From NCBI GenBank assembly GCA_030950365.1, contig JAUZRQ010000111.1:1-64000 (forward strand): a stretch of DNA of 64,000 nt, written 5' to 3'. Numbering within the stretch: the first letter of the stretch is position 1; each line of letters starts with the position of its first letter. Positions 45,379 through 50,153 of this stretch are shown here, piece by piece. Source of the stretch: Candidatus Zhuqueibacterota bacterium (GTDB lineage: Bacteria > Zhuqueibacterota > Zhuqueibacteria > Zhuqueibacterales > Geothermadaptataceae). A program made the position numbers and the translations under genes. The notes beneath the pieces were generated by a model. It did not search any database. It was not told where the DNA came from and worked only from the letters and a program-made list of their open reading frames with translations.

Positions 45379-46218
45379 ATGAAAATTGAACTGCAGCATC
45401 GAAACGGCACCGCCCTGAGGAGTCCACTGCTTCATCAAAACGAAGCGTTTGTGGATATCGATTTCATTGCGGAAAATCATGCCGCCCGCGAACAGCGCCT
45501 GGCGCAGGTGAATAAAACCAGCTCGCCCTTTTTGCACGCGGTTGCACAGAGCCTGAATCGCAAAAATTATTATCAGGAGTTGCAAAAGCATCTCCTGGCC
45601 GAATCACGGCAGCTTTACAAATTCATATTGGAACAGAAAAAACGCCAGGGCCGGAAGGTGTTCGTGTTTTCCAGCGCTTACAAGAACGAAGGCGTGGCCA
45701 CGGTTGTGCTGAATCTGATCAAGGCGTTCGAAAAAGCCGGCGAAAACCATCGCGTGCTGGTGGTTGATGCCAATGTGAAAACCCCCGGGTTGACGCGCTT
45801 TCTCGGTGGCATGGCGCTGGGGCAGGGCCTGCTGGACCTGCTGGCTGAAGGCTGCGAAATCAAAGGCATTTTGCAAAAGCTGGTCGGCGCAGAAATCTAT
45901 TTTCTCGGCCACGGACGTAAGCGCAAAAACGCCCATGAATATATGACCTATACCAATCTCAAAACGCATCTGGCCCGGCTGGAGGATTTGTTTGATTTTA
46001 TTATCGTAGCGGCACCGCCGCTGGAATTGAACCTCGAAGGTTATTTGTGGGGCCGCCTGGCGGATGGCCTGATCCTGGTGATTCATGCCTACCGCACGCC
46101 GCTGCGGGCCATCAAGCGCATCAAGCGGCGTACGCAAAAATTCAACGCCTCCATTCTCGGCACGGTGCTGAATCGCCGTCAGTTCGCGATTCCGAAATTC
46201 GTGTACGAATGGGTCTAA
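45379..46218 (+). CDS. degenerate BY-kinase-like P-loop protein
   Basis: A 279-residue protein with the overall plan of a CpsD/CapB bacterial tyrosine kinase. The Walker A region at 98-109 reads SSAYKNEGVATV, where the expected EGK[ST]T lysine is V106. The Walker A' motif retains its aspartate (VLVVDANVKTPG, D130). The Walker B region reads FDFIIVAAPP, with alanine for aspartate. There is no tyrosine-rich tail, and the ending (FAIPKFVYEW) lacks the usual cluster. ATP hydrolysis is therefore doubtful. It may act as a regulatory partner for glycan polymerisation. The two glycan-type genes that follow support this, though a 558-base gap separates them. Confidence 0.7.
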   Translation: MKIELQHRNGTALRSPLLHQNEAFVDIDFIAENHAAREQRLAQVNKTSSPFLHAVAQSLNRKNYYQELQKHLLAESRQLYKFILEQKKRQGRKVFVFSSAYKNEGVATVVLNLIKAFEKAGENHRVLVVDANVKTPGLTRFLGGMALGQGLLDLLAEGCEIKGILQKLVGAEIYFLGHGRKRKNAHEYMTYTNLKTHLARLEDLFDFIIVAAPPLELNLEGYLWGRLADGLILVIHAYRTPLRAIKRIKRRTQKFNASILGTVLNRRQFAIPKFVYEWV

Positions 46219-46776
46219 AAAGGGCAAAATTGGTGAACACGATCTTATAGAATCCCACTTCCATGGCAATCCTCCTGTTGCGCGGCGTTCGGGAGTTGTT
46301 TCCCGGCGTCGCGTTTTTTGTTGATGCCGAATTGCAGGGATTCTGGCATTCGTACCGCTTTATCAGGAGCAGGGTAACAATTCTGGCCTCTTTTACCATG
46401 CGTGAATTGGGAAGTCTTTTGTTCATTCGAAAACCAATAGCGCCCCGGGATGGTTGATGCTTATGAAAGCGCCATCTTCTGCAACGCCGCAAGTGTGGTG
46501 CGGGCTTGCCGGAAATCAAGACATTGTTGTCGAATGTTTTGTGAAGCCATGAAACATTGTTTACAGGTTCGACAAAAATTTGAAAACCATTCAGACAGGC
46601 AATCAAAAATAAATATGTCTAATTTAATAAAAATCAATTAATTGGCAGAATAAAAAAATGTAACAGACATGGCATTGTTTTTGATTGAAGATGCACAGGA
46701 GTCAAAGCGGCAGGAGCAATGAAAGGGATTTTCGTGTGGCCGGTCTTCAGGCCATATTTAAAACAGGGAGGTTTCA
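46219..46776. other. 558-base gap inside the island
   Basis: No gene is supported. Short open frames at 46263-46457, 46450-46641 and 46685-47086 lack ribosome sites and family features. The last third is AT-rich, and the next gene has its GGGAGG site at about 46768-46773. Confidence 0.5.
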
Positions 46777-48717
46777 TTGGGAGCGATTTTCGGTCTCGTT
46801 GACTTCGGTCGGCCTGCTCGGCGTTCGCCGAAAAAGGTCATTCAATATATGGCAACCATTCAAGGGGATCACCTCGCTTCGCGTTTGCAGCTCCATGCCG
46901 ATGGCTGGATCGGCCTGGGCGCCCTGCCTGCACGCCACGAAGCATCCCGCACCTATGATGATCAGTTTTTTACCGATGACCGGTTGGCGGTCTTTTTCGA
47001 CGGTGATTTGCTCAACCGCGCCTCCATCGCTGCGGCCAGCCGAATTTCGCTCGAAACAGCGCGGGAAATGTCCACGCCGGAACTGATCGCGCGCTGTTTC
47101 GAGCACCGTGGGCCGGTGCTGTTCGAAGAGCTGGATGGCATTTATCGCATAATTGTGTGGGACTTTGTGGATAAAAAGCTGTATATTGCCAATGACCGTT
47201 TCGCCATGATGCCCATGTTTTATTATCAGGAAGGCGAGCGCATCTTTTTCGGATCGGAAATCAAATTCATCTTGAAGGGCATCGAAGCGCTGCCGGGCAT
47301 CAACGTGCAGGCCATCGCCGATTTTCTGGCCTTCGGCTCAATTCTCAACGAGAATACGTTTTTCTCCGGCATTCGGTTTGTTCCTCGGGAAGCCTGTGTG
47401 GAAATCGCCGAGGACAGCATCAAGGAAATCCCCTATTCCAACCGTCTCGATTTCACTCAGTCTCCAGGCATCACTCAGTTTGAAGATGCCTGTGCCCATA
47501 TCCGCAATGCCGTCATGACCGGCATCCGTGCCTATTCCGGGGATCACTCGGCGGCGGTTTTTCTCTCCGGCGGCATATCGTCGCGATTTCTTGCCGCGGC
47601 GGAGAAACGTCTTCGCGGTCATTTGCAAACCTTCACTTTCGGCGCCGATTTCAGCGATGACATGGAAATCGCCCGGGAAGTTGCCATCGCCCTGAATGCC
47701 GAACATGAGACGCGCGTGCTGGCCCCGGAACGGTACATCGAGTCGTTCCAGCGGGCCGTCTGGCTCAGCGATGGCCTTCTCGATGGCGGCGCCGGCGGCT
47801 TGCTCTCGATGATGGCCGGTTCGGAGAATGAGATACCGCTCTATTTATACGGTCTGAATTTTCTCAATGCGCCTTTTTACAATGCGGAGTTCGCTTACTG
47901 GAGGCGGCGCAAGCACGACGTGCGATTCAAAACCTGGCTGGCCGAGCGTATTTTCGGCAAAATCTATCGCGCCGATGATGAATACCTGCCGGCCGGTGCG
48001 ATCATTCGGGATGAAGTCAACGGGCCTCTTTTCGATCCGGATGCGCAATTGCGGCACCTGGCTGCAAGCACGGATCTGTTCGAGGAATACCCCGGCAAAG
48101 CGCTTCATTATTTGCAATTCGCTTACCGGCAGCCGTACCGGCAGGCGTTGCAGTTCCAGGCGCTAAATCACTATGCGCCGGTCAAAGCGCCGTATTTTAC
48201 GTTTCAATATCTCGATACCGTGCTCAAATTGCCAGAAAGTTACCTGTCGCGGGATCAAAAACTGTTCCGGCATTTGCTAGCGGAGTTTGCCCCGGAGTTG
48301 TTAAACATTCGATGGCAAAACACCATGCTGCCGCTAAATGCCTCACAAAAAGAGGAATATTTCTGGCGCATTTTGAAATTTTTGAACGATCATTTCCGGT
48401 TCTACCGCGGTCGGCCGCTGGAAAACAACCCCCTGGTGCGCCAGCCGATTTTCGATTTTCAAAAGGCGCTGGAAAGCGATGCCGGGTTCCAGCAGGCCGT
48501 GCGCTACCTGCTGTTCGATTTGCTACCGGACGAACTGATCAATCGCTATACCGTGCAGAAGTTGTTCCGGTATGCCATTACCTATCGTCTCGATGTATCC
48601 GAGTTTCTGTCGCGAATCATGACGATCACGCTCTGGTATCAGTATTTCGTGCTGAAAAACGATCCCTTCGATATGATGGTGCGCAAGCGGAGCGGAGGAT
48701 TGCAGAAGGTATTCTAA
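46777..48717 (+). CDS. asparagine-synthetase-like protein lacking the glutaminase cysteine
   Basis: A 646-residue protein with a class-II amidotransferase-like N-terminal half and an asparagine-synthase C-terminal half. It begins (TTG start with a strong GGGAGG site) MGAIFGLVDFG instead of MCGIFG, so the nucleophilic Cys2 is missing. The pyrophosphatase loop reads LSGGISS (264-269) in place of SGGLDS. The FTFGADFSDDMEIAREVA segment for AMP binding is kept. Without Cys2 it cannot use glutamine in the usual manner, and ammonia or another nucleophile would be needed. Similar homologues occur in peptide-modifying and polysaccharide loci. The role here is unknown. It is six bases upstream of the glycosyltransferase. 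Confidence 0.75.
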   Translation: MGAIFGLVDFGRPARRSPKKVIQYMATIQGDHLASRLQLHADGWIGLGALPARHEASRTYDDQFFTDDRLAVFFDGDLLNRASIAAASRISLETAREMSTPELIARCFEHRGPVLFEELDGIYRIIVWDFVDKKLYIANDRFAMMPMFYYQEGERIFFGSEIKFILKGIEALPGINVQAIADFLAFGSILNENTFFSGIRFVPREACVEIAEDSIKEIPYSNRLDFTQSPGITQFEDACAHIRNAVMTGIRAYSGDHSAAVFLSGGISSRFLAAAEKRLRGHLQTFTFGADFSDDMEIAREVAIALNAEHETRVLAPERYIESFQRAVWLSDGLLDGGAGGLLSMMAGSENEIPLYLYGLNFLNAPFYNAEFAYWRRRKHDVRFKTWLAERIFGKIYRADDEYLPAGAIIRDEVNGPLFDPDAQLRHLAASTDLFEEYPGKALHYLQFAYRQPYRQALQFQALNHYAPVKAPYFTFQYLDTVLKLPESYLSRDQKLFRHLLAEFAPELLNIRWQNTMLPLNASQKEEYFWRILKFLNDHFRFYRGRPLENNPLVRQPIFDFQKALESDAGFQQAVRYLLFDLLPDELINRYTVQKLFRYAITYRLDVSEFLSRIMTITLWYQYFVLKNDPFDMMVRKRSGGLQKVF

Positions 48718-48732
48718 CCCAAGGTGGCTGCC

Positions 48733-50028
48733 ATGTTTTTGGTGTATAACGAAAAAAAGAGTAAAACGCTCCCCCGCGATGCGATCGGAGCGCGTAAGAC
48801 CATTGCGTATCTGTTTTATAGCTTTCCGCGCTATACCGAATCGTATGCGTATCGTGAGGTGCTGCAGCTCGATAAACTGGGCCTGGATATGGCGCTGTTT
48901 GCGTTGCGGCGTGAACCGCCGGGCCCTGTGCCCAATGAGGCGGTACAGCTCCTGGAAAAGACGGCCTATTTGCAACGGATGCCGCTTCCGCGCAAGCTGG
49001 CGTACCATGTGGCCGTGTTCGTCAGGCATCCTTTTCGGTATGTACTGGCCTTTTTGAAGCAGATGCTGTTTGCCGGCCAAAATCCGCTATTGTTCTGGCG
49101 CAACTGGCGCGTATTCTGGATCGGTGTCGTTTTGGGTCGCAAGCTGTATCGACGCGGACTCGAGCATTTGCATATTCATCATGCGCAGACCATTACGGCG
49201 GTCGGTTATGTTGCCTCTCAGATTGCGCGCATTCCGTTCAGCATTATGATGTATGGCAAAGACCTGCTGTCGCTGAAACGGGATGCGCGAGCTGCATTGC
49301 GAAAGGCCGAATTTGTCCTATGCTTCAATGAAGCACATAAAGAAACCCTTCTGGATCACATTCCCGGCCTGCCTCAATCCAGGATTCATGTGCTGCATCC
49401 AGGAGTGGATACGGATGTGTTCAAGCCGGTGGATGAAAAAAAAGAATCGTTGTTTCAATACCGGCTGGTGACCGTGACGCAACTGGCGCCGAACCGCGGA
49501 CTGGAAGCGTTTTTGACATGCTGCAAAATTCTAGATGCCCGTCACGTGGATTTCGAAGCGATCATCATCGGGGAAGGGCCGGATCGGCAAAAGCTGCAGG
49601 AAACGGCCAACCGCTATCGATTGAATCATCGCGTGCGTTTTTCCGGGGCTCGGAGGATGGAGGAGATTATCGAGATCATGGGCAGGGCAGACCTGTTTGT
49701 GCTGCCCCTGCCCAGAACTCGTGAGAACGATTACGAATCCACGCCCATGGCGCTGCTGGAGGCCATGGCCATGGGGATTCCGGTGGTGACCACGGAAATC
49801 GAAGGCATCCGCGAGCTGGTGGATGAATCCACCGGCCGCTTGCTGGATGAGCCAGAACCGGTGGCGCTGGCGGATGTCATTGAAGAATTGCTAATGCAAG
49901 GTGTGGTACGCGAGGAGATGGGACGCCAGGCCCGCCTCCGCATTCAAAGACAGTATCAACTGGAAAAAACTTCACGGCAGCTCATTCGCCTGTTCAGCAT
50001 CGATCCCAAGAAAATGGAGCCGTATTAA
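48733..50028 (+). CDS. GT4-family glycosyltransferase
   Basis: A 431-residue GT-B fold enzyme. The C-terminal half shows the sugar-nucleotide binding plan LVTVTQLAPNRGLEAFL, IIGEGPDRQKLQETA, and the ExxxxxxxE-type motif ESTPMALLEAMAMG. The N-terminal acceptor half is less conserved (YSFPRYTESYAYREV). ATG at 48733 is preferred to an upstream GTG. It lies directly after the asparagine-synthetase homologue and is followed by a strong terminator, marking the end of the transcript. It probably adds a sugar during exopolysaccharide or lipid-linked glycan assembly. Confidence 0.85.
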   Translation: MFLVYNEKKSKTLPRDAIGARKTIAYLFYSFPRYTESYAYREVLQLDKLGLDMALFALRREPPGPVPNEAVQLLEKTAYLQRMPLPRKLAYHVAVFVRHPFRYVLAFLKQMLFAGQNPLLFWRNWRVFWIGVVLGRKLYRRGLEHLHIHHAQTITAVGYVASQIARIPFSIMMYGKDLLSLKRDARAALRKAEFVLCFNEAHKETLLDHIPGLPQSRIHVLHPGVDTDVFKPVDEKKESLFQYRLVTVTQLAPNRGLEAFLTCCKILDARHVDFEAIIIGEGPDRQKLQETANRYRLNHRVRFSGARRMEEIIEIMGRADLFVLPLPRTRENDYESTPMALLEAMAMGIPVVTTEIEGIRELVDESTGRLLDEPEPVALADVIEELLMQGVVREEMGRQARLRIQRQYQLEKTSRQLIRLFSIDPKKMEPY

Positions 50029-50095
50029 GTGTCACGCAATCAGGTAGATAGACTCGCAATTGCATGGGATGAATGGGGGGAGGGGATGCAACCAG

Positions 50096-50120
50096 GGCCG
50101 TCTCAATGACGGCCTTTTTT
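50096..50120 (+). terminator. intrinsic terminator of the glycan island
   Basis: GGCCGTC, loop TCAAT, GACGGCC, followed by six T. It lies 68 bases after the glycosyltransferase stop. Confidence 0.85.
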
Positions 50121-50153
50121 AATTGCGTTGAAATAAGGAGCCGATCTCTAAAG

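Follow-up and report, generated by a model that had tools for sequence, protein, structure and literature searches.

A locus probably derived from an exopolysaccharide gene cluster in candidate division KSB1 encodes a BY pseudokinase and an asparagine synthetase-like protein lacking catalytic residues

Introduction

BY pseudokinases have been recognized in glycan assembly only recently (EcpK, 2025). EcpK and HfsB, BY pseudokinases encoded as stand-alone proteins, act by binding their polysaccharide co-polymerase (PCP) (PMC12004946). AsnB homologues also occur in glycan pathways, where WbpS and PGN_1234 amidate surface sugars (PMC7468200). To judge from NCBIfam model names, XrtA-type exopolysaccharide (EPS) loci likewise contain a tyrosine autokinase together with an amidotransferase and GT4 glycosyltransferases. 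In beta-lactam synthetase, CarA, and lasso-peptide cyclase, also homologous to AsnB, the glutaminase half is not used but the synthetase motifs are retained; the known AsnB homologues without the catalytic Cys are active ligases.

Here, we describe a locus in a 64,000-nucleotide stretch of DNA (the window) from an organism of candidate division KSB1, a bacterial group without cultured members. It encodes a stand-alone BY pseudokinase (K), an AsnB-fold protein (ASN), and a GT4 glycosyltransferase (GT4). The comparison covered 82 genomes of the phylum, several of them fragmented metagenome-assembled genomes (MAGs) and 15 of them in the window's order. Genomes, loci, and contigs are designated by G, L, and C numbers; G001 (KSB1 MAG contig WFVT01000171) is a sister species in the same genus as the window organism.

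Results

Gene order and predicted transcripts. All three genes lie on the plus strand. K (positions 45379 to 46218; 279 amino acids) was assigned by homology, motifs, a structure match, and its orthologues in the order; ASN (46777 to 48717; 646 amino acids; TTG start after GGGAGG) by Pfam, motifs, structure, and selection (dN/dS, 0.08); and GT4 (48733 to 50028) by Pfam, motif, and selection. The ATG at 48733, preceded by AAGGTGG, is the likely GT4 start and agrees with that of the orthologues; the first possible start, a GTG at 48724, follows the ASN stop codon after a 6-base gap. GC content is 0.51 to 0.52 in the island versus 0.54 to 0.61 in neighboring genes.

The preliminary description read the locus as three co-oriented genes ended by one strong terminator. 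The open reading frames and the final terminator (50094 to 50121, plus strand; 9-bp GC hairpin with a T-run at 50094 to 50116; fold z, -4.0) were confirmed, but a second intrinsic terminator lies directly 3' of K (46280 to 46319, plus strand; 15-bp GC-rich stem with a T-run; -24.7 kcal/mol and z of -4.2 by in silico folding), and the single operon was therefore not upheld. A homologous hairpin with changed sequence follows K in G001 (z, -4.0). From this terminator, also found in the sister species, we conclude that K is probably transcribed on its own and apart from ASN and GT4, which form a second transcript ending at the final terminator.

Purifying selection on all three genes. Between the window and G001, dN/dS was 0.069 for K, 0.081 for ASN, and 0.117 for GT4, compared with 0.03 to 0.085 for ten neighboring genes; these values are rough, with synonymous sites near saturation, and pN/pS agrees. 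Neutral simulation at 0.5 changes per site gave a mean of 8 to 19 stop codons per gene and 38% identity. The three genes have no stop codons and 69 to 84% identity, which is incompatible with that simulation. K, ASN, and GT4 are under purifying selection and are not decaying, in agreement with the earlier view that their alterations are not random decay.

K is a BY pseudokinase. K matched the BY-kinases BceF, VpsO, CapAB, and Wzc in phmmer and Foldseek searches (PDB), and scored 77 bits against eps_fam. Its AlphaFold model (pLDDT, 76) had Wzc, VpsO, BceF, and Etk as best PDB matches, with Foldseek E values of 1e-12 to 1e-10 to Wzc, VpsO, and BceF. The Walker A sequence is YKNEGVAT, without the Lys of TGEGKST in same-genome paralogues, and Walker B is VAAPP, without the Asp of VDAPP. 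The tail of K has one Tyr, versus 5 to 10 in the last 40 residues of four same-genome BY-kinases, all of which have GEGKST or GDGKSF and the Walker B Asp. Fold and missing residues thus bear out the description of K as an eroded BY-kinase-like protein. The Walker A Lys and the Tyr tail were missing from 10 of 10 K orthologues; in the sister family, Walker A reads EGTST, and the Walker B Asp is retained. In a tree, the grouping of K of the window's family with that of the sister family had low support (66/44), with modest sampling of K and ASN paralogues; K proteins of the two families are therefore taken as orthologues from their gene order and profile scores.

We conclude that K belongs to the known kind of BY pseudokinase represented by EcpK and HfsB. 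Like these proteins in the pseudokinase and PCP-2 pairs EcpK/EpsV of Myxococcus xanthus and HfsB/HfsA of Caulobacter, K stands alone and has the BY-kinase fold without Walker motifs or a Tyr tail, and sister-family K adjoins a Wzz without a kinase domain inside a Wzx/Wzy cluster. Unlike them, K in the window's family has no linked Wzz or other PCP and is accompanied by a pseudo-AsnB. We found no orphan PCP in the window's genome: all four Wzz proteins (on C66, C82, C129, and C57) have a fused or adjacent BY-kinase. Elsewhere in the order, L072 and L073 (G004:C99 and G002:C8) encode further stand-alone pseudo-BY-kinases, with EGTTT or EGAST and no Tyr tail, beside a stand-alone Wzz; pseudokinase-PCP pairs seem to be common in the order.

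ASN lacks the residues of both AsnB half-reactions. ASN scored above the Pfam cut-offs for GATase_7 and Asn_synthase, and its predicted model (pTM, 0.84) had TsnB9, E. coli AsnB, beta-lactam synthetase, and CarA as structural neighbors. The N terminus reads MGAIFG rather than MCGI, so the catalytic Cys is missing, and the PP-loop reads SGGISS rather than SGGxDS. Compared with canonical AsnB of the phylum, ASN has also lost R49, N74, and D98, together with the catalytic Lys and the acidic residues of SGxGGDE; it retains the SGG loop and a DG motif. The earlier reading of an AsnB homologue altered at both active sites accordingly holds and extends to further positions. Cys, R49, D98, GDE, and Lys are absent from all ASN proteins examined in the window's family (Lys and the SGxGGDE acids in 5 of 5), while the PP-loop Asp is lost in 3 of 5 and the Ser in a fourth. 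Sister-family ASN begins MPGIFG and has no Cys, R49, or GDE, but retains SGGxDS and the Lys. In the ASN tree the two families group together (support, 93/90), and the stem of the window's family is long (1.48).

The preliminary description argued that changes at critical sites indicated a changed function. A changed function stands, and we infer it from conservation under selection and not from where the changes lie. Targeting of the sites does not stand: among the columns that do not vary in canonical AsnB, 49% of the catalytic ones and 28% of the others are kept in the window's family, so that 72% of the noncatalytic invariant positions have changed too. Moreover, the Cys of ASN, like the Walker A Lys of K, is lacking even from the homologues in sister-family EPS clusters. 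Structural glycines are kept and chemically active side chains are lost in a protein that has diverged far as a whole. Amidation or amino-acylation of a surface glycan, the role first suggested for the locus, is not borne out by an ASN without the residues for either half-reaction. On its sequence, a catalytic role of ASN is unlikely, and the retained SGG loop and DG motif would allow it to bind a ligand.

ASN resembles the EPS amidotransferases (TIGR03108, WbpS, and WbqG) in having an AsnB fold in a polysaccharide-derived locus, and differs from them in lacking the glutaminase Cys and the synthetase residues. It scored 108 bits against TIGR01536 (asparagine synthase B; cut-off, 267) and 78 bits against TIGR03108 (cut-off, 817). 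Membership in an exosortase/XrtA system was rejected, every score being far under its cut-off. A lasso-peptide or beta-lactam-type cyclase was rejected as well: unlike beta-lactam synthetase, CarA, and lasso-peptide cyclase, ASN has lost the synthetase motifs, and we saw no precursor, partner, peptide, or beta-amino-acid genes nearby. In the literature, we found no dead-glutaminase AsnB in EPS loci, and on plasmids only ordinary AsnB matches, over about half the length.

GT4 and a nucleotidyltransferase-like protein of related loci. GT4 scored 107.8 bits against Glycos_transf_1 (cut-off, 26.4) and has the E-x7-E motif. Its donor-phosphate residues read TQL..NRG versus GRL..KG, and some presumed active paralogues vary at the Arg too; GT4 may still be active. 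The nearest EPS family is the EpsE type (NF041876), from which GT4 differs in scoring under the cut-off (181 bits versus 400) and in its donor-phosphate residues. In the cross-family comparison, an in-genome paralogue scored similarly to GT4 (134 bits), so the GT4 genes of the two families are putative orthologues at most. GT4 follows ASN only in the window's genus and in G003 (2 of 3 genera), and is absent from G002 and G004.

In G002, G003, and G004, a nucleotidyltransferase/hexapeptide-like protein of about 370 to 400 amino acids (NTPT) is encoded between K and ASN; in G006, it lies downstream of K. All NTPT proteins examined in the window's family have lost the signature GGxGTRL..PK, reading RNNTSLRPL..DK or similar. 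NTPT is absent from the window's genus. The position that it takes elsewhere is occupied in the window by a noncoding gap of 558 bases (46219 to 46776, plus strand), in which we found no match to a hidden NTPT remnant and which is poorly conserved between the two species save for short blocks. NTPT and ASN as pseudoenzymes beside K appear to be undescribed.

Distribution in the order and the phylum. K orthologues (>240 bits) were found within the order only, in 11 of its 15 genomes; the other 67 genomes of the phylum had none. Full-length orthologues of ASN (>690 bits) were found in 10 of the 15, besides a contig-end fragment in G014; elsewhere among the 82 genomes, none reached full-length scores. 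The two share a locus in 8 of 15 (G000 to G004, G008, G010, and G012), and thus co-occur beyond the window's genome, as the preliminary description had proposed to check. G011 and G014 have them on separate small contigs, G006 has K and NTPT with an unrelated open reading frame where ASN would be, G009 has two ASN copies and no K, and G005, G007, and G013 have neither.

Beyond the order, we found only looser Cys-less relatives of ASN, in G016 and G021 (another family of the class) and in Roseilinea. The G021 protein reads MPGIFG; that of G016 also looks Cys-less, its N terminus lying outside the alignment. Both sit in loci with PGT-like (glycosylphosphotransferase) and glycosyltransferase-like genes. 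The Roseilinea homologue (L111:9731-11557), in a glycosyltransferase cluster of a Chloroflexota MAG, was the only hit outside KSB1 matched along most of its length.

Relationship to a Wzx/Wzy cluster. The chromosomal site between dinB and AKR/malQ is common to G000, G001, G002, and G004, and its dinB side is found in G006. At this site, G001 has K-ASN-GT4, and other genera of the window's family have K-NTPT-ASN, with or without GT4; G003 has the matching gene order on a short contig. The common site indicates vertical inheritance of the island. Despite the somewhat lower GC content of the island, horizontal acquisition in the window's genus was rejected on the same site in two genera whose full context is available (this genus and that of G002/G004) and the same order in G003. 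In G004, malQ itself is split over two frames (L045:13152-14698), and it is intact in the other compared genomes.

The sister-family cluster of L046 runs Wzz, K, an NTPT-PGT fusion, Wzy, Wzx, GT2, ASN, PMT, further genes, GT4, GT2, WecG, and a canonical AsnB; parts of it are kept in L049/L119, L050, L051, and L116. K, NTPT, ASN, and GT4 thus follow one another in this cluster as they do in the island. The search for flanking polymerase or flippase genes, also proposed at the outset, therefore gave a positive result in the sister family, where homologues lie beside Wzz, Wzy, Wzx, and PGT genes. All four functions (Wzx, Wzy, PCP, and initiating PGT) are present in sister-family loci and absent from the window and from its family's loci. 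The fusion protein of these clusters (L046:15772-17583, L050:13675-15474, and L051:2600-4372) has about 600 amino acids and joins a sugar nucleotidyltransferase, hexapeptide repeats, and an initiating polyprenyl glycosylphosphotransferase. In G009, which lacks K, the usual C terminus of the Wzz (L051:674-2539) is replaced by a long tail rich in Pro and Ala.

We conclude that the island is, with high probability, a reduced and vertically inherited derivative of a Wzx/Wzy EPS cluster, and that most of its catalytic capacity is gone. The losses of the Walker A Lys and the Tyr tail from K and of the Cys from ASN are probably ancestral, since the sister-family cluster already shows them. Sister-family K and ASN are only partly defective, and so catalysis was probably lost stepwise, the first part in or before the common ancestor and the rest in the window's family.

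Discussion

We favor, at about an even chance, a model in which K, NTPT, and ASN act by binding and not by catalysis, as scaffolds or regulators. The sequence analysis shows the anatomy and homology of the island, the loss of catalytic residues, their conservation as genes, and in silico the division into transcripts; the binding functions and their partners we infer. Membrane and polymerization genes would have left the locus in the window's family, and K, NTPT, and ASN would have turned into pseudoenzymes that are still selected. By analogy to EcpK and HfsB, K would scaffold a PCP without Tyr phosphorylation. Such a partner would be encoded elsewhere, as one of the four kinase-linked Wzz proteins or another protein, and is hypothetical because the genome has no orphan PCP. 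ASN, with its fold and most of its P-loop (SGG) kept, may be a noncatalytic partner or ligand sensor of the co-transcribed GT4. Counting against the model are the low support of the K tree, the lack of an orphan Wzz, and the E-x7-E that GT4 keeps in the window's genus. ASN missing beside K in G006 and K missing in G009 further indicate that the two are not strictly interdependent. We consider it possible, but doubtful, that the kinase-, nucleotidyltransferase-, and asparagine synthetase-like enzymes lost catalysis jointly and were kept by selection as a noncatalytic complex. If true, a glycan gene cluster would here have been put to a new use.

Somewhat less probable still is that K and ASN-GT4 have no functional connection and are remnants of the cluster, separately co-opted for different functions and neighbors only by descent. 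The terminator between K and ASN would fit this explanation, as would the genomes with K-NTPT without ASN or ASN without K and the lack of GT4 in G002 and G004; however, K-ASN synteny is kept in three genera of the family, the two genes occur together in the sister-family cluster, and both proteins have lost catalysis.

We think it improbable that ASN, regulated by K, works as an ATP-dependent amide ligase on a glycan that GT4 helps to make, with a remodeled site and with ammonia or an amine as its nucleophile, as in beta-lactam synthetase. Active Cys-less homologues are known, beta-lactam synthetase and CarA are among the structural neighbors of ASN, WbpS and PGN_1234 amidate surface sugars (PMC7468200), and SGGxDS and the Lys persist in ASN of the sister family. 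Against this stand the losses of Lys, SGxGGDE acids, and PP-loop residues across the window's family; moreover, the genes examined at the locus include no sugar dehydrogenase or aminotransferase gene. Least probable of all is a dead EPS cluster without present function on its way to loss, for although Wzz, PGT, Wzx, Wzy, and then NTPT were lost stepwise, active sites were lost, and GT4 drifts fastest, the genes have no stop codons or frameshifts, dN/dS is 0.07 to 0.12 with synonymous sites near-saturated, and the neutral simulation is incompatible with the data.

The locus extends what is recognized of pseudokinases in glycan assembly: in one lineage, several neighboring enzymes of an EPS cluster, beyond the kinase, have lost their active sites, yet their genes are under purifying selection. 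It also argues for caution in annotating such AsnB-like proteins as amidotransferases. The natural series from the complete cluster of the sister family to the reduced island can be used to separate structural from catalytic roles of EPS enzymes.
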